In this document: piece by piece, positions 2,113 to 30,548 of the stretch
Layout of the letters: every line of letters begins with the position of its first letter
Position numbering within the stretch: position 1 is the stretch's first letter
IMG/VR virus record: IMGVR_UViG_3300044974_000081
Coordinates: 1-39,963 of that record
Length of the DNA stretch: 39,963 nucleotides
Source of the DNA: a virus
Strand: one strand, 5' to 3'
Position numbers and translations under genes: made by a program
The notes under the pieces: generated by a model
What the model saw: the letters and a program-made list of their open reading frames with translations, nothing else
Told to the model about the DNA's origin: nothing
Databases searched by the model: none

Positions 2113-2467
2113 TGTTGACCTCTACCCAATTGACTGCTTCTTCATCCCAGCTATACATCTTACCGTCGGTAGGCATCGCAACAGGAGCTTCCCACTGAGC
2201 ATTAGCGTTTAGAAGCCAGCTAGCAAAGGGCTTAGGCGGCACAAACGCGTCAATGTCTGCTCGGTAGGTATAACCAATCCCTGCGTAGTTTTTACGCATG
2301 TTGCCGTTGTAGCTTGTCTGCTTCCATGTTCCACCTAGAATCTTCTCTAGATGAGCAGCACCAATGTGTTCTTTTTCAACACCGCTAGCGTCTGAAGTGT
2401 CCTTGTTATCAACAACGACAACCTGCGTGACGATGTTGTTTTCATCAATCTTTGCGAAGTGAGCCAT
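2105..2467 (-). CDS. Conserved phage virion/tail-associated protein, 120 aa
   Basis: A 120-aa protein beginning MAHFAKIDENNIVTQVVVVD. It contains TWKQTSYNGNMRKNYAGIGY followed by TYRADIDAFVPPKPF and a Trp-rich C-terminus with MYSWDEEAVNWVEV. The YNGNxRKNYAGIGYTY block is a pattern I recognise from uncharacterised proteins of marine cyanophages and related phages, where it accompanies structural genes. The function is unknown. It lies between the 2OG-Fe(II) oxygenase and fibre-like genes, so a role in the distal tail or adhesin is plausible (inference). Confidence 0.65.
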   Translation of the reverse strand: MAHFAKIDENNIVTQVVVVDNKDTSDASGVEKEHIGAAHLEKILGGTWKQTSYNGNMRKNYAGIGYTYRADIDAFVPPKPFASWLLNANAQWEAPVAMPTDGKMYSWDEEAVNWVEVNNG

Positions 2468-3069
2468 TACGCCTCCAGCCTTAAGCCTGTTAAATCCATT
2501 TCTTCCCCGACAACACCGACAGGGAAGGTATTAAAACTGAGTGAGATTCTTGTGTCCTCGCCCTTGACTTCAGGAACCATGTGTGTGAGCGACGAAGGAA
2601 AGAGAATCAGCCTGCCTGCATAAGCCTCAAACCACCAACTCTCACTGTTATACGGGTTCCACTGGTCAGGAGGGAATTTGATCTGCTGCCAGCCATCTTT
2701 ATAGAAGTAAATCCTGTCATCAGGGTTGGTCTGAACGTAGAACACACCTGAGATATACGAATTAGGATGAGCGTGTTTGTGGTGGTACTGGCCTTGCTCT
2801 GAATAGTTGCACCAGCTTTGCGTCACTCTCAGACTTACATTGTGCTTAGGATTGACTGTGGACTTAAAGTATTCCGAGACAGCATCCTCGATGAACGAAC
2901 GTAGGTTTGTCAGTACAGGGCTACGAAGTACGAAGTTATCAGTGCTTGTCGTGTTGCCCTGATTAGGTCTTGTCTGTAGCTCACGGATGAAGAACAACTC
3001 CTCATCGGACAAGGGTCTACCGAGTTCAGCAAAGCCTACAGGTGTCGGAAACAGATTATGCAATTGCAT
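2467..3069 (-). CDS. Putative 2OG-Fe(II) oxygenase
   Basis: A protein of about 200 aa that resembles the phage 2-oxoglutarate/Fe(II) dioxygenases (2OG-FeII_Oxy_5 type). Seen with numbering from the ATG at 3069: N-terminal FPTPVGFAEL, the metal-binding segment HAHPNSYISGVFYV with His99 and His101, then a distal GRLILFPSSLTHMVPEV with His163 and Arg174 in DTRISLSFN, which would bind 2-oxoglutarate. The ATG at 3069 is preferred over an in-frame TTG at 3075 because AAGGA lies about 8 bases upstream. In this family the enzymes hydroxylate protein or small-molecule substrates. The substrate here is unknown. The location inside the fibre block suggests a structural or host-surface target (inference). 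Confidence 0.75.
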   Translation of the reverse strand: MQLHNLFPTPVGFAELGRPLSDEELFFIRELQTRPNQGNTTSTDNFVLRSPVLTNLRSFIEDAVSEYFKSTVNPKHNVSLRVTQSWCNYSEQGQYHHKHAHPNSYISGVFYVQTNPDDRIYFYKDGWQQIKFPPDQWNPYNSESWWFEAYAGRLILFPSSLTHMVPEVKGEDTRISLSFNTFPVGVVGEEMDLTGLRLEA

Positions 3070-3310
3070 CTTCAATTTCCTTTTGCTTGATGCCCATCTC
3101 TTCTAACTGTTCAGGTAGCCAGATCGTTGGGATGCTGTCCTCAAACTCCTTGATCTTGTCTATCACCCAATAAACTTCCTTAATACTCGGACAAGGTCTA
3201 GGATCATCCCAGCGTGTGAATACGTTGTTAGAGATTTCCCACTTAGCACCCGGACGAAGCAGGTGCATTGCTGTGTCTATTCCTAAGAAGCGATATGTTT
3301 TTGTAGTCAT
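3056..3310 (-). CDS. Hypothetical protein in fibre block, 84 aa
   Basis: An 84-aa protein with RFLGIDTAMHLLRPGAKWEI, the motif WDDPRPCPSIKEVYWVIDKI and an acidic helical C-terminus. The WDDPRPCPSxxEV segment resembles short phage proteins found beside oxygenase and tail-fibre genes. No enzymatic motif is visible. It ends inside the start region of the oxygenase gene (14-base overlap with the ATG used), which implies translational coupling. It could be a chaperone or accessory for a fibre, but no function can be assigned. Confidence 0.6.
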   Translation of the reverse strand: MTTKTYRFLGIDTAMHLLRPGAKWEISNNVFTRWDDPRPCPSIKEVYWVIDKIKEFEDSIPTIWLPEQLEEMGIKQKEIEDAIA

Positions 3311-3311
3311 G

Positions 3312-5279
3312 TTATTGATTGATTTTGATAATTACGACACCGGAGCCGCCTGTGCCTCCAGCATTATTTCCAGAACCAGCGCCTCCACCACCTCCTGTAT
3401 TAGCAGTTCCGGGGTTTCCGGCTCCATAAGACGGCCCCGGAGTTCCACTACCTCCACCACCAGAACCTCCTGTTCCTGCCGTACCGCTTCTTTTAGAACC
3501 GCCACCACCACCTGAGAAATAAACTGAGCTAGATACAACTTGACCAACAGCAAATGATGTTGCCTGTGCCGTGCTAATAATGGTTGTTATGACCCCAACA
3601 CCACCATTGCCACCCGTAGAACCAGCAGCAGCACCAGCACCTCCACCACCGCCTCCACCACCGCCAGCAACATTAGCCTCGCTGCCGCCACCACCATCGT
3701 AACCTTGCCTTGTACCAGAAATAAAAGGCGATCCGGGATAAAGTCCAGACCCTGCTGTACCCGACCCTGAATAAGTTGCGCCGCCGCCGCCTGATCCACC
3801 ATTTCTGGCATTTCTTGCAGAGGTATCCCCAAAAGAACCCCCGCCACCACCGCCAAAAGCACTGCTGCCACTAAGCGTGCCTGTGATGGTTGTACTAGAA
3901 ACTGTCTGGCTTACGTTAACTGTGTAGGTTCCTGCTCCACCAGTACCCGTACCGTAGGCTGTAATGAATGTCCCACTTGCAACACCCGTACCTGACAGCG
4001 CCATCCCTGCGTAAAAAGTATTAGTGACTGTTCCACCAACCGTTAAGGTTGTACCTGATATAGACGAAGCAGTTCCAGATGCGCTAGAAATTGATGGGGT
4101 ATCCGACAAAGGCGAACCAAAAAAGGATGAATTTGTTCCATTTTTTCCTTGATTGTTATTAGTGCCTCCACTTCCACCACCACCTACCACAATTGTGTAT
4201 TCTTGACCTGCCGTAACTGATTGCGCCGAACCTGTTACAAAACCACCACCGCCACCACCTCCACCTATACCATCCGTTGATCCTGTACTGCCACCACCAC
4301 CCCCACCACCCGCAACCACAAGGTAGTCAACAGAGGTCACACCAGTAGGACATTTCCACGTCGTCGTGCCTTTGAATACAAAGACGGTTTGGCTAGGTAC
4401 GGTGTACTTTAGGATGACGATACCGGAGCCGCCTGCGCCTGCAACAGTTGACCCGCTATCACCGCTGTTTCTACTTCCACCACCACCGCCACCTGTACCA
4501 GATGTCCCAGGAACTGCGCCAGTAGTCCAAACCCCAGCACCACCACCACCAGTACCTCCAGTTGAATTGGGCTGGCCGCCCCCGCCACCACCGCCTGCGT
4601 AAGTAACAGAACTCCCAGTGATTGAAGAGGCTGTACCATTTCCTCCGTTCCCTCCTGCATTACTAGATCCAGTGCCGCCAACAGCGCTTGCGCCACCTCC
4701 ACCGCCAGCCCCAACAGCACCGCTTTGCCCATTACCACCATTATTTCCTTGCGATGGAGAGGTAGACGGTGTATTACCTGTCCCTCCTGGGACAAGTGCC
4801 GGATATAAACAAGAACCGCCGCCACCCGATCCACCGTTTTGCCCAGCGGATATAGAAAAGCCACCGCCACCACCGCCACCATACGCAACTAAAGCATTGC
4901 TATAGGGATTTCCAGAGGATGGATTGTTAGAGATCGGAGAACCGGAAATATAGGAATTACCTCCGTTTCCTCCTGTTACAGCCGAAGTGCCAACACCAAC
5001 CCCTGCTGTTCCTGCCGCCCCTACGGCAATTGTGTAATCCGTTCCTGCTGTTACGGAAAGTCCTGTTCCCGTTCTAAAACCGCCAGCGCCACCTCCACCG
5101 CCGGTTGTGCAGCCACCACCCCCACCACCAGCCACTACCAAATACTCAACCTCTGTCACCCCAGCAGGGCAAGTCCACGTAGAGGTAGCCGTAAAGGTTT
5201 GGATGACGGTGTAGCCACCACCGCCGCCCCCTGAACCAGCAAAGGCAGCAGCAATCATTGCACTTAATGCACCAGCCAT
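3312..5279 (-). CDS. Glycine-rich tail fibre/adhesin with two repeated domains
   Basis: A 655-aa protein dominated by poly-glycine tracts. Two copies of the same module are visible, each beginning with a conserved strand: [17 protein letters not shown] (near residue 36) and [17 protein letters not shown] (near residue 310). Each ends in a strand like GSGIVILKY or GSGVVIIKI. This is the phage glycine-rich domain found in receptor-binding proteins, where polyglycine II helices form the sugar- or receptor-contacting tip. The second copy holds a Ser/Thr-rich insertion ([20 protein letters not shown] and following) absent from the first. It lies in the fibre cluster directly before an unrelated 84-aa gene. 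Function: adsorption (inference from family). Confidence 0.75.
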
Positions 5280-6036: not shown

Positions 6037-8397
6037 TCACCCTAATACCATCCAAGATTGTCCGTCTGGGACTGTAACTGCAAAACCAGCCGCTACTGTT
6101 ACAGGGCTGACAGATAGTCCGTTAGTATTACTTGTTAGTGTTACGTTTGAAGAAATAAGTATTTGAGACTCTAGAATAGGGCCACCAGCACCGCCTCCAG
6201 TAGCGGACAATGTACCAGCAGAATAGCTTAGGCCAGAGCCAACAGTAACGTTAGCAAAGCCACCAGAGCCATCATTAGCTAGTAATTCAGCTGCTGTGCC
6301 TGTCGTTGAAGAACCACCTGCTGGTGTATCCCAAGCAAAGGCAGTACCATTCCACTTAAGGTAAGTATTCGATGTTGTAGGTGCTGTAGCAAATGTTGTT
6401 GTATTAGAACCACTCTGATACACAATACGATTAGCACCACCACCAGTGATTGCTGCTGTGATTCCTGAAGAACCAGTGATATCGATACCCCAAGTACCAG
6501 TAGCATTAGTACCTGTAATGGAAGGAGCACCTACTGTATTATAACTGATTGTACGTGCTACAGAACCATCAAAGGTTACTGTTGGTGTATCACCACCACT
6601 GCTTGAGAATGTTGCTGCATTGGTTGTTGTACCGCCACCACCTGATACAGCAGCCCAACTTAGTACAGAGCCATCCCACTTAAGGTAAGTATTAGATACT
6701 GTAGGAGCTGCTACGAATGTTGTTGTTCCTGATCCACTTTGATAAGGAATACGATTTGCTGCACCACCAGCTAAGTTAGTTGCTGTGGTAGCTGTTGTTG
6801 CTGATGTAGCAGAGGTTGCTGCAGCAGCGTTACCTGTGATGTCAATAGACCATGTACCTGAAGCATCTCCGCCTGTTCTTGTAGGTACATTAAGGTTTGC
6901 TCTAGCATTTGCTTCAGTGGTTGCGTTAGTACCACCTTTGTTGATAGGTACAGCAGAATCTAATGTAATGTTTGGTGTTGCACCACCAGAGGATGCTAAA
7001 GGAGCTGAAGCTGTAACAGAACTAACACCACCACCAGTACCACTAGTGGCTGCTGTGATACGACCTTGAGCATCAACTGTGATGTTAGCGTTGGTGTAAG
7101 AACCAGCAGTAACAGCAGTATTTGTAAGACTGATTGAACGATCTGTACTTAGATCACCACCACCTGATAAACCTGTACCAGCGCTAAGACTACGTGTTGT
7201 CGGTACAGCACCAATACTTGCTGGTGTGATGGATGCGTTTGAAGCTGCTGTAATCCTTCCCTGTGCGTCAACTGTGAATGTAGCTACTTGCGAAGTACTA
7301 CCATAACTGGTAGCAGTAACACCTGTGTTGGTCAAGCTAATCGAACGATCAGAACTAAGATCACCTCCTCCCGTCAGACCACTTCCAACTGAGATGGTCC
7401 TTGTTGATGGAACAGCGCCAATACCTGAAGCAGTAATGCTTGTATTTGATGCTGATGTCAACCTACCTTGTGCATCTACAGTAAAGGTTGCTACTTGAGA
7501 ACCTGAACCATAAGAACCAGCTGTGACTGCTGTGTTATCTAATGCTATAGTACCTGATGTTTTTATCGTACCACCGCTAAGACCTGTACCAGCAGTTATC
7601 GATGTAACTGTCCCTGTACCTGTAATGGTAGCATATTCAAGACCTGTACCGCCTGTGTTAACACGAACAACTTGACCTGCTGTGCCTAAAGCAGTTAATC
7701 CAGTACCACCGTTAGCGACAGGCAATGCAGAGCCTGAATAGCTAACAGCTAATGTACCAGAGGAAGTAATAGGAGTACCACTAACACTTAAGAAACCAGG
7801 AACAGTCATCGCTACAGAGGATACAGTACCCCCTACAGCTTGCCATTTAAGACCTGATGTTTCAGTAGAGTCAGCAGCTAGTACGTAACCATCCGTACCT
7901 TTTGGTAAGCGAACATTGTCACTACCATTGTGAACAATGATATCGCCTTTAGTTGTTGTCGGAGATAAAGCATCAAATGCTTCAGTCTTTGTTGTTTGAC
8001 CAGTACCACCATTAGCGATAGCTACTGTACCGCTTACGTTAGTTGCTGTTGTTGCTGATGTCGCAGTAGCAGCATTACCTGTAATAGCAATGTTCCATGT
8101 ACCGCTAGCGCCTGTGCCAGTAGTAGATGGAACACCTAAATTAGTTCTTGCTGTTGCTGCATCAGAAGCACCAGTACCACCGTCTGCTACAGCAAGATCG
8201 GTAATACCAGCAATAGAGCCGCCAGTAATCGCTACAGCATTAGCTTCTTGATTCCCTAGAGAACCAACAATCTTTTGTACCGTTGATCCATCACCAACAT
8301 AGAGTTTCTTGTCCGTTGTGTTAACGGCTAATTGTCTATTCTCTAGTGAGGTAGGTACTGACCCTGCTGTAGAAGATCCTTTGATCTTAACCGCCAT
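6037..8397 (-). CDS. Large tail fibre with Mtd-N-like head and repeats
   Basis: A 786-aa fibre protein. The N-terminus SLENRQLAVNTTDKKLYVGD matches the short module at the start of major tropism determinant (Mtd_N-like) and many phage fibre proteins. The body holds repeated GGTGxT motifs and about three copies of a unit with QVATFTVDAQGRLTSAS, IGAVPSTRTIS and GLTGGGDLSSDRSISL (roughly residues 290-450). Two later copies carry ANRIPYQSGSGTTTF and SNTYLKWDGS. The composition is Thr/Ser/Gly/Ala-rich, as in trimeric beta shafts. It is the first large gene after the capsid terminator and heads the adsorption block. No enzymatic domain is seen. Confidence 0.8.
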   Translation of the reverse strand: MAVKIKGSSTAGSVPTSLENRQLAVNTTDKKLYVGDGSTVQKIVGSLGNQEANAVAITGGSIAGITDLAVADGGTGASDAATARTNLGVPSTTGTGASGTWNIAITGNAATATSATTATNVSGTVAIANGGTGQTTKTEAFDALSPTTTKGDIIVHNGSDNVRLPKGTDGYVLAADSTETSGLKWQAVGGTVSSVAMTVPGFLSVSGTPITSSGTLAVSYSGSALPVANGGTGLTALGTAGQVVRVNTGGTGLEYATITGTGTVTSITAGTGLSGGTIKTSGTIALDNTAVTAGSYGSGSQVATFTVDAQGRLTSASNTSITASGIGAVPSTRTISVGSGLTGGGDLSSDRSISLTNTGVTATSYGSTSQVATFTVDAQGRITAASNASITPASIGAVPTTRSLSAGTGLSGGGDLSTDRSISLTNTAVTAGSYTNANITVDAQGRITAATSGTGGGVSSVTASAPLASSGGATPNITLDSAVPINKGGTNATTEANARANLNVPTRTGGDASGTWSIDITGNAAAATSATSATTATTATNLAGGAANRIPYQSGSGTTTFVAAPTVSNTYLKWDGSVLSWAAVSGGGGTTTNAATFSSSGGDTPTVTFDGSVARTISYNTVGAPSITGTNATGTWGIDITGSSGITAAITGGGANRIVYQSGSNTTTFATAPTTSNTYLKWNGTAFAWDTPAGGSSTTGTAAELLANDGSGGFANVTVGSGLSYSAGTLSATGGGAGGPILESQILISSNVTLTSNTNGLSVSPVTVAAGFAVTVPDGQSWMVLG

Positions 8398-12879: not shown

Positions 12880-14133
12880 TCACCAACCTATCGTAGTGTC
12901 TAGGACTTCATACTCTTCTTGGTCCAGATTCTGATTCCAATCCGCTACTTGAATCTGGTCAATGTAACTTAACGCATCAATTAAGTCATCATGTGTCTTA
13001 GGATCAGGGAACTGCATAAGTTGATCTACAAACTTATTATTCCAATCACCTTCATTCAACACAATCCTACCGTGTTCAAAGCGTCCCTGTAATGACCAAA
13101 CAATCCTATCTGCTTTCTTCTTATTACCGTGTGTTAGCTCTTCAATGCGAGGATAATAATTTAATCTTCTCATCAAATCATTCATATAAGGCATCACTGC
13201 ATTCTTCAGTGAACCTTTCTCAATCCCTACTGCATTAACTCTGTAGTCCTTTGCAGCCTTTAGAATCCTCACTGCTGTTTCTCGGACATCCCATCTACCG
13301 TGTTGAATGTCAGCAACCCACCAGCCTTTGGTATTGATCTTAACAATAGCTATCGCTGTGTCATCAAGCTTTTTATTCTTCGTTTGATTCGTCTGAGATG
13401 AATCACTGAAACCACATAGATCCACCGCAATAAAGTAGTTACCTTCTTCCGGCTCTTCTTCACTGATCTTAATCCATTCATCTTTGAAGATCTCCGACTG
13501 TGCTGCCTCAAACGAAGCCATAAACTCTTGTCTAAAAGCAAAGCTAGACATCGAACCTCTAGCTGCTTCAATCTCTAAAGGATCTAACAATGGATTATCA
13601 AAGCTAGTGAAGTGCCAAGACTTGTAATCTTTATCTTTACCTGAATCACCTACTTTGTACAATTCATAAAAGTGATTCCTACCCATTGGTGTTCCAATGA
13701 ACATTGATCTACCCTTCTGATCCGCTAAAGCAGGTCTAAGGATTTGTTCGAACACCTGTGGCTTCATGTCTGCGTACTCATCCATCACTAAGTACTTCAA
13801 ACTAACACCACGCATAGTCTCTGGTCTGTCAGCACCCTTTAGCGATATCATTGCACCGTTGATCAACGTAATCTGCATGTTATTGACATGACTATTCTTG
13901 ATCACTGTATGGCCTAGCTCTAACAGCGTAGACCACATAATATCCCTAGCTTGTCCCTGTGTTGGGGCTACATACCAGACATGACCCTTCTCAGTCTGTA
14001 GTGCCTCAATAATCAATGTCCAAGCAGCTAACCTTGATTTACCTGTACGTCTACCAGCAGCGATGATCTTAAACCTTGCTGGATCTTTGAAGACCTCTTG
14101 CTGCCAAGGAAGAAGTTTAACTTGTAGATCCAT
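12880..14133 (-). CDS. terL: Terminase large subunit (ATPase/nuclease)
   Basis: A 417-aa DNA-packaging motor. Seen: Walker A GRRTGKS at residues 27-33 with the preceding adenine-binding Gln region, Walker B YLVMDEYADM with Asp118-Glu119, then the RNase H-like nuclease with FIAVDLCGFSD (metal Asp) and a C-terminal HDDLIDALSY. The start at 14133 (MDLQVKLLPW) is chosen over 14151 because GAGGA lies about seven bases upstream. It overlaps the end of the small subunit gene. The protein pumps DNA into the prohead through the portal encoded downstream. The packaging type (headful or repeat-based) cannot be told from a circular assembly. Confidence 0.92.
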   Translation of the reverse strand: MDLQVKLLPWQQEVFKDPARFKIIAAGRRTGKSRLAAWTLIIEALQTEKGHVWYVAPTQGQARDIMWSTLLELGHTVIKNSHVNNMQITLINGAMISLKGADRPETMRGVSLKYLVMDEYADMKPQVFEQILRPALADQKGRSMFIGTPMGRNHFYELYKVGDSGKDKDYKSWHFTSFDNPLLDPLEIEAARGSMSSFAFRQEFMASFEAAQSEIFKDEWIKISEEEPEEGNYFIAVDLCGFSDSSQTNQTKNKKLDDTAIAIVKINTKGWWVADIQHGRWDVRETAVRILKAAKDYRVNAVGIEKGSLKNAVMPYMNDLMRRLNYYPRIEELTHGNKKKADRIVWSLQGRFEHGRIVLNEGDWNNKFVDQLMQFPDPKTHDDLIDALSYIDQIQVADWNQNLDQEEYEVLDTTIGW

Positions 14134-14611
14134 CTTCTTCCTCGTAATCAATCAATGTAGTCTCTACATCGACTGGTTCATGCTCTATCATTTCTACTGG
14201 AGACTCTTGCACTCCAGTGATGTTTATAGTGATTGCTTTAGCCCCTGATGCTGTTCCTTTATCCTCAAAGTAAGATACTGGAAGCATCCGATCCATACAC
14301 ATCTTAAGCGCTGCAATCTGATCCTTATCATTATCATCTAATGCTTTATGTACTATCTTTCTGATAATCGCATTAGAGTGTGTCAGCAACAGCGAAGCAG
14401 TGAACTCTTTAATCCTTGCTGCTTCTCCTGGTGGTCTACCTCTTTTCTCTCTCTTAATGTACTTCTGTACTTCTTCCTTCTTAGGACGACCTCTAGATCT
14501 CTTCTTTTTCGCAGGCACTTTCTTCTCTTCATTGACTGCCAAGACATCCTGGCTGACCGATGAAGGTAGCGAACAATCCTCAGTAGGAGAAGTAATTTTA
14601 ATTTCTGACAT
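14117..14611 (-). CDS. Putative terminase small subunit
   Basis: A 164-aa protein with two AT-hook-like basic segments (KRSRGRPKK and KRGRPPGEA, residues about 38-62), then a helical region with LLLTHSNAIIRKIVHKALDD and ALKMCMDRMLPVSYFE. The xxALKMCxDRxLP segment is common in small terminases of environmental podoviruses. The C-terminal tail is acidic. It is first in the late unit, and its stop overlaps the terL start, as expected for terS. It would recognise the packaging site. The assignment rests on position plus these motifs; a DNA-binding regulator is the alternative. Confidence 0.7.
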   Translation of the reverse strand: MSEIKITSPTEDCSLPSSVSQDVLAVNEEKKVPAKKKRSRGRPKKEEVQKYIKREKRGRPPGEAARIKEFTASLLLTHSNAIIRKIVHKALDDNDKDQIAALKMCMDRMLPVSYFEDKGTASGAKAITINITGVQESPVEMIEHEPVDVETTLIDYEEEDGSTS

Positions 14612-14778: not shown

Positions 14779-14807
14779 ATTATAGCATATTTTTTAAGTT
14801 TTGTCAA
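14779..14807 (-). promoter_or_regulatory. Perfect consensus sigma70 late promoter
   Basis: On the minus strand TTGACA (14807-14802), a 17-bp spacer ending in TGC, and TATAAT (14784-14779): both hexamers are exact and there is an extended-10 TGn. RNA would start near 14772, leaving a leader of about 160 bases before the terS ATG at 14611. Confidence 0.88.
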
Positions 14808-15082: not shown

Positions 15083-15202
15083 ATTGTCGCTAGGTACAAT
15101 AGAGATTGTCGCTAGGATGACAATTCAATATACAAAGTCATAGATTGTCACTACGACGACAATACATTATATGAAATCATAGATTGTCGTTAGGATGACA
15201 AT
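15083..15202. repeat. Iteron-like inverted repeats, 39-bp period
   Basis: Three copies of ATTGTC-N8-GACAAT start at 15105, 15144 and 15183, exactly 39 bp apart. The surrounding sequence (CATAGATTGTC before copies 3 and 4) is repeated too. A shorter fourth copy, ATTGTCGCTAGGTACAAT, starts at 15083. This arrangement fits operator sites for a dimeric protein or origin iterons. Confidence 0.85.
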
Positions 15203-15207
15203 TGAGT

Positions 15208-15224
15208 CTGTGCAGACTGTGCAG
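15208..15224 (+). repeat. 17-bp direct repeat, copy 1
   Basis: CTGTGCAGACTGTGCAG, identical to 15302-15318. It is itself built from two CTGTGCAG units. An inverted 9-bp copy (GCACAGTCT) lies at 14856-14864. Confidence 0.85.
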
Positions 15225-15301
15225 GCACAAAAGTGTATCGATGGAGCACCACATAGGGATACTTTATTGACCACATAGATACACCTTATCATTGTCTAAG
15301 A

Positions 15302-15318
15302 CTGTGCAGACTGTGCAG
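15302..15318 (+). repeat. 17-bp direct repeat, copy 2, next to parS
   Basis: A second exact copy of CTGTGCAGACTGTGCAG, 94 bp downstream of the first. It ends one base before the parS-type 16-mer, so the two may form one protein-binding region. Confidence 0.85.
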
Positions 15319-15319
15319 A

Positions 15320-15335
15320 TGTTCCACGTGAAACA
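15320..15335. promoter_or_regulatory. parS: Perfect chromosomal-type parS site
   Basis: TGTTCCACGTGAAACA is identical to the Bacillus subtilis consensus parS, the site bound by chromosomal ParB (Spo0J) and conserved across many bacterial phyla. It lies in the noncoding control region beside a direct repeat. No ParA or ParB gene is visible in the genome, so any binding protein would be the host's. The sequence identity is seen directly; binding is inferred. Confidence 0.8.
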
Positions 15336-15416
15336 ATAACCTAAACTGTTGTGTTCGAACAACGTTACCGTTCATCATGGATTGTCTGCCGTTCGTCGGA
15401 TACACTGCAAACTGCC

Positions 15417-15445
15417 TTGACAATGCAAAAACACTTGTTTAGTAT
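15417..15445 (+). promoter_or_regulatory. Putative early sigma70 promoter
   Basis: TTGACA (15417-15422), a 17-bp spacer and TAGTAT (15440-15445). The -35 is exact and the -10 matches four of six. It would start RNA near 15452, upstream of the first early gene at 15481. Confidence 0.75.
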
Positions 15446-15624: not shown

Positions 15625-16269
15625 ATGCTCAAGCTTTCGATTACATCTAAACTAGACGGAATTAGATCTTGGAGTTTACAGGCCTTAGATACTTGTCCGG
15701 GATCTGTTGGCGACAATGGCGAGTTAGTTGCTGCCTGCGCTGGTTGCTATGCCACTACAGGCAATTATTTATATCCTAACGTAAAGGCTCCGCGTGAGCA
15801 TAATAAACAAGACTGGCAGCGGGATAGTTGGGTTGATGACATGGTCCAAGCATTAGACTCCGATCGTTACTTTCGCTGGTTCGATTCTGGTGACATGTAC
15901 GCAATCAAGCTTGCAGAGAAAATGCTCGAGGTCATGAAACGTACACCTTGGTGTAAACATTGGTTGCCGACTAGAATGCACAAGTTTCCTAAGTATCAAT
16001 CAATCATTGATCAAATGGATGCACTGCCGAATGTTGTTGTTCGTAGGTCATCAGATTCCGTTATCGGCGAAGTACTTGATGCACCATGGTCTAGCACTAT
16101 TGCAGAATCCTACAATGATGATAGCATCAGTGTATGCCCAGCGTATCAGCAAGGCGGAAAGTGCAAAGGGTGTAGGAAGTGCTGGGACAAGTCAATCCCA
16201 GTTATCGGTTATGCTGCTCATGGCCAAAAGATGTCTAAAGTTATCAGACTTAAACTTGCAAAGGGTTGA
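15625..16269 (+). CDS. GP88-family cysteine-rich protein
   Basis: A 214-aa protein matching the general pattern of the phage GP88 family: N-terminal LSITSKLDGIRSWSLQALDT, a cysteine cluster with Cys24, Cys38 and Cys41 (AACAGCYATTGNY), the core RWFDSGDMYAIKLAEKMLEV, PTRMHKFPKY, and a second cluster with Cys171, Cys180, Cys183 and Cys186 (CKGCRKCWD). Seven conserved-looking cysteines suggest an Fe-S cluster or zinc. The layout recalls radical-SAM-like proteins but lacks the canonical CX3CX2C. AAGGA precedes the ATG. It is the first sizeable early gene. The biochemical role of the family is unknown to me. Confidence 0.7.
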   Translation: MLKLSITSKLDGIRSWSLQALDTCPGSVGDNGELVAACAGCYATTGNYLYPNVKAPREHNKQDWQRDSWVDDMVQALDSDRYFRWFDSGDMYAIKLAEKMLEVMKRTPWCKHWLPTRMHKFPKYQSIIDQMDALPNVVVRRSSDSVIGEVLDAPWSSTIAESYNDDSISVCPAYQQGGKCKGCRKCWDKSIPVIGYAAHGQKMSKVIRLKLAKG

Positions 16270-28650: not shown

Positions 28651-30548
28651 TGAAGTTGAATAACTACCAAGCATTTATCCACAAGAGCCGCTACAGTAGG
28701 TTTCTTGACGAACAAGGACGTAGAGAGAACTGGGGTGAGACTGTAGATCGCTACATGGCTTTTATGCAAAAGCAGTTGCTTAAGAAGCATAAGTATGAGA
28801 TTCCTCAGCATATCTACAAGACTGTACACAAGGCTATTCTGAACCTTGATGTCATGCCTTCGATGCGCTGTATGATGACTGCTGGTGAGGCACTAGAACG
28901 TCAGAACATTGCAGGATATAATTGTTCGTATCTACCTATCGATGATCCTAAGTCATTCGATGAGGCTATGTACATCCTTCTATGTGGCACTGGTGTCGGT
29001 TTCTCTGTAGAGTCTAAGTATGTCAATCAATTACCTGAAGTCCCTGATCAGCTATTCGATAGTAAAACTACTATCGTGGTATCCGACAGCAAAGAAGGCT
29101 GGGCTAAAGCACTACGACAACTTATTGCTTTACTCTATGCTGGAGAGATTGCAAAATGGGATGTCTCCAAAGTTAGACCTGCTGGGACAAGACTTAAGAC
29201 CTTTGGAGGAAGAGCTTCTGGTCCAGAACCCCTCGTTGAACTATTCAAGTTTGTTATTAGGAAGTTCCAAGCGGCCAAAAATCGTCGTCTCTCGTCCATT
29301 GAATGCCATGATATTTTGTGCAAGATCGGGGAGGTTGTTGTTGTGGGTGGTGTGCGACGATCTGCAATGATATCTTTAAGCGATCTAAGTGATGATCGTA
29401 TGGCACACGCTAAAGCCGGTGCTTGGTGGGAACAACAAGGACAACGTAGCCTAGCTAACAACTCTGCTGTGTATGATACAAAGCCTTCAGTAGGTCAATT
29501 CATGCGTGAATGGTGCTCAGTCTATGAGAGTCATTCTGGTGAGCGTGGTATCTTCAACAGGGAGGCATCACAGAAACAAGCTGCTATCAATGGTCGTAGA
29601 GATCCTAATCATGACTTTGGTACGAATCCCTGCAGTGAGATCATCCTACGTCCCTACCAATTCTGTAACCTCACTGAGGTTATTGTCAGGGCTACAGATA
29701 CTATTGAGGATCTACGCTACAAAGTACGTGTAGCATCGATTCTAGGCACTTGGCAGAGCACAATGACTGACTTCCCTTACCTGCGTAAGATCTGGGAAAA
29801 GAACACCGCTGAAGAACGTCTATTGGGTGTATCGCTGACAGGTATCTACGACAATCCATTGTTGAATGACCCTAATGATAATCAATTACCATTAAGACTA
29901 CAGGATCTTAAGCATGAAGCAGTCACTGCGAATGAAGTTACAGCGAGTGCTCTGGGCATTCCCGTCTCTGCTGCGATCACTTGCGTTAAGCCTTCTGGTA
30001 CTGTGTCTCAGTTGTGTGGCACTGCTAGTGGAATTCACCCACAACATGCTTCGTATTACATTAGACGTGTTAGATCGGATAAAAAAGATCCTCTCACAGC
30101 GTTTATGATCAGCCAGGGTATCCCTAATGAGCCTTGTGTGATGAGACCAGACAGTACAACAGTGTTCTCATTTCCTATGAAGGCTCCTGATTCAGCAATA
30201 ACTAGGGATGATGTATCTTCTATTGCACACTTAAACCTATGGAAAGTGTATCAACTTAACTGGTGCGAACATAAGCCTTCAGTAACTATCTCAGTGAACG
30301 AAGAAGATTGGCCTACTGTAGGTGCTTGGGTGTACAGGAACTTTGATATCTGTACTGGTGTATCGTTCTTGCCTATGGATGGTGGTACGTATCGACAGGC
30401 TCCTTATGAGACATGTACTGAACAAGAATACAATGAACTCTTAGCTAAGATGCCTGTGAACATCAATTGGGATGATCTTAAGGAAGTAGATGATAACGTC
30501 GAAGGTGCACAGCAACTAGCCTGTGTTGCCGGAGTGTGTGAGATCTAG
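28650..30548 (+). CDS. nrdJ: Adenosylcobalamin-dependent ribonucleotide reductase (class II)
   Basis: A 632-aa monomeric class II RNR that reduces ribonucleotides to deoxyribonucleotides using a B12-derived radical. Key cysteines: Cys92 in AGYNCSYLPI, Cys328 (radical) in GTNPCSEI, Cys339 in QFCNLTEV, and the C-terminal CX4C pair Cys625/Cys630 in CVAGVCEI. The 11-residue spacing of Cys328 and Cys339 and the CX4C tail match Lactobacillus leichmannii RTPR. The phosphate-binding-like CVKPSGTVSQLCGTASGIHP is present. It is shorter than RTPR (739 aa), and no ATP-cone is seen. It is the last large gene of the early unit and supplies dNTPs together with ThyX. Confidence 0.92.
   Translation: MKLNNYQAFIHKSRYSRFLDEQGRRENWGETVDRYMAFMQKQLLKKHKYEIPQHIYKTVHKAILNLDVMPSMRCMMTAGEALERQNIAGYNCSYLPIDDPKSFDEAMYILLCGTGVGFSVESKYVNQLPEVPDQLFDSKTTIVVSDSKEGWAKALRQLIALLYAGEIAKWDVSKVRPAGTRLKTFGGRASGPEPLVELFKFVIRKFQAAKNRRLSSIECHDILCKIGEVVVVGGVRRSAMISLSDLSDDRMAHAKAGAWWEQQGQRSLANNSAVYDTKPSVGQFMREWCSVYESHSGERGIFNREASQKQAAINGRRDPNHDFGTNPCSEIILRPYQFCNLTEVIVRATDTIEDLRYKVRVASILGTWQSTMTDFPYLRKIWEKNTAEERLLGVSLTGIYDNPLLNDPNDNQLPLRLQDLKHEAVTANEVTASALGIPVSAAITCVKPSGTVSQLCGTASGIHPQHASYYIRRVRSDKKDPLTAFMISQGIPNEPCVMRPDSTTVFSFPMKAPDSAITRDDVSSIAHLNLWKVYQLNWCEHKPSVTISVNEEDWPTVGAWVYRNFDICTGVSFLPMDGGTYRQAPYETCTEQEYNELLAKMPVNINWDDLKEVDDNVEGAQQLACVAGVCEI

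Follow-up and report, generated by a model that had tools for sequence, protein, structure and literature searches.

The window analysed here, the whole 39,963-nucleotide stretch of the IMG/VR virus record IMGVR_UViG_3300044974_000081, encodes TerL, portal, MCP, primase-helicase, DNA polymerase, exonucleases, ThyX, class II RNR and lysozyme, together with many early proteins that have no family match. A 2OG-Fe(II) oxygenase (PF13759) at 2467-3075 lies within the structural and tail region. The leftward terS with the structural genes and the rightward GP88 gene with the early and replication genes are separated by a divergent region of about 1 kb, in which a single parS site is situated among repeats, a palindrome and two promoters (Table 1).

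Table 1. Coordinates of the control region features and of the adjacent genes in the window
Feature	Position	Strand	Basis and remarks
TerL (terminase large subunit)	12880..14151	-	phrog_2, 4e-45
terS-like small terminase subunit	14117..14611	-	position beside TerL, no family match above cut-off; left boundary of control region
leftward sigma-70 promoter, perfect (TTGACA-17-TATAAT), of terS/structural operon	14779..14807	-	promoter scan
three 39-bp iteron-like repeats, each with ATTGTC-N8-GACAAT	15103..15219	+	
ACTGTGCAG direct repeats (15205-15224, 15299-15318)	15205..15318	+	upstream side of parS
parS 16-mer TGTTCCACGTGAAACA	15320..15335	+	exact match in window scan, conserved among relatives
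14-bp parS core GTTYCACGTGRAAC	15321-15334		within the 16-mer, conserved
conserved palindrome TGTTGTGTTCGAACAACG, also given as TGTTGTRTTCGAACAACR	15347..15364		downstream of parS; alignment of relatives
two CCGTTCRTC direct repeats, 21 bp apart (15368-15376, 15389-15397)	15368..15397	+	alignment
early promoter TTGACA-17-TAGTAT	15417..15445	+	scan; kept in most aligned relatives
GP88-family early gene	15625..16269	+	PF17338, 1.5e-28; right boundary of control region

The perfect B. subtilis-type parS announced in the original prediction was recovered by our scan as an exact 16-mer. It is the sole copy in the window at zero or one mismatch, while 0.40 copies with up to three mismatches are expected by chance. 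For the four-member family TGTTYCACGTGRAACA hand arithmetic gives a chance expectation of about 4e-5 per 40 kb, which agrees with the 2e-5 calculated earlier for the single 16-mer, and a chance match as the origin of the site is ruled out by its conservation in relatives (see below). The sequence conforms to that of chromosomal-type parS, TGTTNCACGTGAAACA, in which the outer bases and N are degenerate. It is located outside every ORF of at least 60 aa and about 80 bp upstream of the early promoter, with direct repeats adjoining, so the earlier placement of the site between genes, beside repeats, holds. The description of its surroundings as a control region between early and late genes likewise stands, but had left unremarked the origin-like look of the region and the position of parS within 13 bp of a palindrome. 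In relatives the gap between palindrome and parS measures either 0-3 or 12-13 bp, two classes that are about one helical turn apart. The CCGTTCRTC repeats form the second most conserved block of the alignment, behind parS, and are probable regulator sites upstream of the early promoter.

Neither ParB_N (PF02195) nor ParA (PF13614), the two proteins of a phage-encoded ParABS cassette, was found in the six frames of the window and of 11 relatives' records, several of which are fragments. Pfam and PHROGs scans of the window proteins returned no integrase and no partition family, which bears out the earlier statement that this phage has no recognisable partition protein. Among the proteins scanned, with small ORFs left unassigned, there was no integrase, repressor or RepA family as a mark of a temperate phage or plasmid-prophage; the uncultured phage and its lineage are apparently virulent. 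The term 'T7-like' used for it previously is loose, as portal, MCP and TerL show no close similarity to their T7 counterparts. No phage RNA polymerase was recognised in the window. Both ends of the window carry an identical 127-bp direct terminal repeat, which resembles the overlap left when a circular or permuted genome is assembled. A contaminating bacterial chromosome is ruled out by this circular-type overlap and the complete phage gene set. The sequence data thus far support the view of the site as a chromosomal-type parS in a phage for which no partition gene was detected.

Close relatives were gathered by GP88 and TerL searches. In most of them the same region contains a single GTTYCACGTGRAAC core, at a distance of about 570-735 bp from the start of terS, and counts over whole records give exactly one core per genome wherever a clade carries parS; a more distant fragment (L198) is the only record with two. 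Absence or lack of conservation in close relatives, which the original prediction had named as evidence against itself, is therefore not what we observe, because these relatives hold parS at the same place. In an alignment of 24 relatives no block is better conserved than the 14-bp core, whose pairwise identity of 96.6% exceeds both that of the whole alignment (61%) and that of fourfold-degenerate positions in the neighbouring GP88 gene (52%). We also gathered IMG/VR loci by the neighbouring palindrome GTTGTRTTCGAACAACRNTACC, leaving parS itself unused, which yielded 63 loci (54 non-redundant). The core is present at most 13 bp upstream of the palindrome in 57 of the 63 and in 50 of the 54; in the non-redundant set it is exact in 47 loci, has one mismatch in three and is absent from four, and none of the palindrome-selected loci has a core at 2-5 mismatches. 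We interpret the window parS as a solitary chromosomal-type site that is probably under purifying selection.

The variation that does occur is not evenly spread. Relatives differ freely in the first and last bases of the 16-mer (G..A, T..T, T..G, T..A, A..A), and substitutions within the core affect mainly positions 4 and 11. Host parS sites differ at the same positions: their consensus is mainly TGTTNCACGTGAAACA, with NGTTNCACGTGAAACN in V. cholerae and t/cGTTt/cCACGTGAAAca in Caulobacter (PMC7022226). Variation is thus found mostly where chromosomal parS is degenerate, a pattern that matches the tolerance of ParB. Core position 4 is C in 36 of 39 cases, and the asymmetric form GTTCC...GAAAC is preferred. 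Its retention goes beyond what a wholly symmetric ParB site would call for, and this surplus makes a second binder or an overlapping function possible. The site is moreover dispensable in part of the clade, because the control regions of four close relatives (L128, L129, L130 and L140; GP88 92-94%) have neither parS nor DnaA boxes. These four carry a different module with CCGTTYRTC-like repeats instead.

Outside the clade we compared sister phages, defined as members of other clades with a TerL identity of 60-71% whose records extend 500 bp or more upstream of terS. Three of them (L246, L287 and L288; TerL 60-68%), whose loci were gathered regardless of parS, have exact cores near terS, and a fourth (L086) was found through parS itself. 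Accordingly, 29 of the 33 sister phages having the region are without parS, one of the four exceptions having been chosen for it; the remaining phages are at least three mismatches away from the core, and intermediates with one or two mismatches do not occur. The core is also carried by the more distant GP88 relatives L177 and L198. In distant relatives the surroundings of parS near terS differ from those in the window. Such an exact-or-absent pattern is what repeated gain and selected retention would yield.

Several relatives show features of a replication origin in the same region. In eight of them (L123, L137, L141, L142, L147, L149, L152 and L155) the slot of the 39-bp repeats holds two to five DnaA boxes (TGTGGATAA), and DnaA arrays are present upstream of terS in 11 of the 33 sister phages. 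One of the latter, L246, has an oriC-like layout at 3216-3364, where five DnaA boxes surround an exact, perfectly palindromic parS upstream of terS. Among the palindrome-selected loci, DnaA arrays are found in all four without parS versus seven of the 50 with it (hypergeometric probability about 0.001 by hand, relatedness ignored). The idea that parS and DnaA arrays are strict alternatives was rejected, as several relatives carry both. The control region of the window itself has no DnaA boxes, and the one strict box, at 28675, lies inside a gene. Its cumulative GC skew has a flat minimum over 14.5-15.5 kb and turns there, in a genome where skew also tracks the direction of transcription. Because of the DnaA arrays in relatives and the skew minimum, we read the divergent region as probably a replication origin combined with an early control region. 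Unrelated viral contigs have no enrichment of DnaA boxes around parS (0.017 vs 0.013 per kb); the link to DnaA is therefore specific to this phage group.

The site itself also recurs outside this group. At least 120 IMG/VR stretches carry the exact 16-mer, compared to one for its reversal and four for a control with scrambled flanks and CACGTG kept; this set consists of viral contigs, in which true phages and possible contaminating chromosome are taken together. In viral contigs with the 16-mer, 63% of the sites are inside ORFs of at least 100 aa, versus 84% of random positions, and an HTH_ParB match above the cut-off was obtained for none of 50 other contigs that carry the exact site. The core was found in nine of ten bacterial genomes searched.

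Some viral contigs contain parS in multiple copies. L044 (IMGVR_UViG_3300037518_000322, 116,662 bp), a GC-rich contig with a weak DNA match to Streptomyces phage only, has 24 exact TGTTYCACGTGRAACA copies in arrays at 91.7-95.7 kb and 105.8-112.4 kb. These are intergenic and, in the stretch that was read, mostly just upstream of a leftward gene start, which looks like a stoperator-like use. Twelve exact copies are present in L016 (IMGVR_UViG_3300038443_000757, 169,219 bp), again in a single viral contig, and L007 has three in one intergenic region (6637-6894), two of which are in direct tandem with zero bases between them.

Binding of host ParB to the phage parS is likely. Neither the window nor the relatives searched yielded a gene resembling parA or parB, so host ParB is probably what the site captures, and it is moderately probable that ParB loaded at the phage origin and early promoter directs the positioning or partition of phage DNA. 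Chromosomal ParB is known to load at parS and to spread along kilobases of DNA as a sliding CTP clamp, to about 10 kb in Caulobacter (PMC5815017), and it stimulates ParA and loads SMC; ParB and ParA influence DnaA in several bacteria (PMC7022226). With a parS at its own origin and early promoter, the phage would obtain this complex at no cost. In the phage, host ParB-CTP dimers would load at parS after injection, and the clamps would slide outward across the origin and early-promoter region, so that the ParB-covered region would become a small imitation of the host origin domain. The phage genome would thereby be tied to the host ParA/nucleoid (and SMC) machinery, leading to its positioning or partition, and the loaded ParB would probably tune the firing of the neighbouring origin and early promoter. 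As the purpose of the site we tentatively prefer this origin-linked positioning together with replication control, at somewhat below an even chance. With similar reserve we suggest that a widespread phage lineage may build its replication and early control region from host origin-domain sites, parS and/or DnaA boxes. If true, host ParB, with ParA, SMC and DnaA, would run both positioning and replication of the phage, and the solitary chromosomal parS would be a so far unrecognised element by which phages in general depend on their hosts.

The strongest rival to positioning and replication control is a transcription switch, in which parS-loaded host ParB acts as activator, roadblock or anti-silencer and segregation is irrelevant. 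The fixed place of parS just upstream of the early sigma-70 promoter and beside conserved operator-like boxes would suit such a switch, as would the helical phasing of the palindrome (0-3 or 12-13 bp). ParB alters transcription in some species (PMC7022226), and a precedent exists in the ParB-derived VirB, which overcomes H-NS using CTP (PMC10676424). However, distant relatives keep parS near terS amid different surroundings, and the DnaA arrays favour an origin in the region; a role restricted to transcription seems on balance unlikely. More doubtful still is an operator for an unrecognised phage DNA-binding protein that uses the parS sequence while host ParB is uninvolved. The preference for C at core position 4, the resemblance of the 24 intergenic copies in L044 to operators and the numerous early proteins without family match would agree with it, but the substitutions match the tolerance of ParB, the same sequence recurs in unrelated phages, and no ParB-type domain was found in the window or the 11 relatives' records, nor, as HTH_ParB above the cut-off, in the 50 other site-bearing contigs.

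With only one site per genome, titration of host ParB or SMC is unlikely as the main role. The same single site, and a placement tied to origin and promoter that would be superfluous for a decoy, also speak against a disguise of the phage as 'chromosome' from defences. The copy number of parS climbs during replication and its sequence is identical to the host consensus, yet we consider a decoy of either kind very improbable. Neutral shared ancestry in a young clade, or chance, would agree with the relatedness of the carriers and the loss of the site in some, but a functionless element is scarcely credible in view of a core identity of 97% versus 52% at fourfold sites and of distant relatives in which the core is either exact or absent.

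Nearly all bacteria segregate their chromosomes by means of ParABS. The phage shares with the chromosomal system (parS, the ParB CTPase, ParA and SMC) the same 16-bp site, a probable origin nearby and, in some relatives, DnaA boxes, but differs in having the site alone, in one copy, with parA and parB undetected. XerCD/dif-exploiting phages (IMEX) likewise enlist host proteins by carrying a site for the maintenance of the host chromosome, and they integrate; the borrowing concept is alike, whereas site and purpose are different. A partition-type site on the phage genome is known from the parABS systems of P1 and of cluster A mycobacteriophages such as RedRock (PMC7157519). Those phages are extrachromosomal prophages with ParA and ParB genes of their own and a separate type of parS, which in RedRock consists of 8-bp direct repeats (PMC7157519); in contrast, the window phage has a host-type palindrome, and lysogeny genes were not found in it. 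A parS-like site acting on a promoter region, as with VirB of Shigella (PMC10676424), is conceivable here as well, but VirB is encoded by the element itself, whereas the ParB would have to be the host's. A literature search that covered few subscription papers or preprints turned up no published case of a lone chromosomal-type parS, the host's own centromere site, conserved in apparently virulent phages in which no ParB is recognisable. If host ParB does load on the phage site, segregation proteins would become host factors for phage replication, and a natural test of ParB roles beyond chromosome segregation would be at hand. It would also explain the strong over-representation of chromosomal parS in viral contigs.

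A TerL search of GTDB genomes at 60% identity or above retrieved only phage-like contigs in mixed MAG bins, which were assigned to Bacteroidota, Verrucomicrobia, Actinobacteria and 'Euryarchaeota'. The capsid protein resembles those of cyanophages, and RNR and DNA polymerase resemble those of phages of Alphaproteobacteria; the latter likeness may serve as a weak hint to the host.
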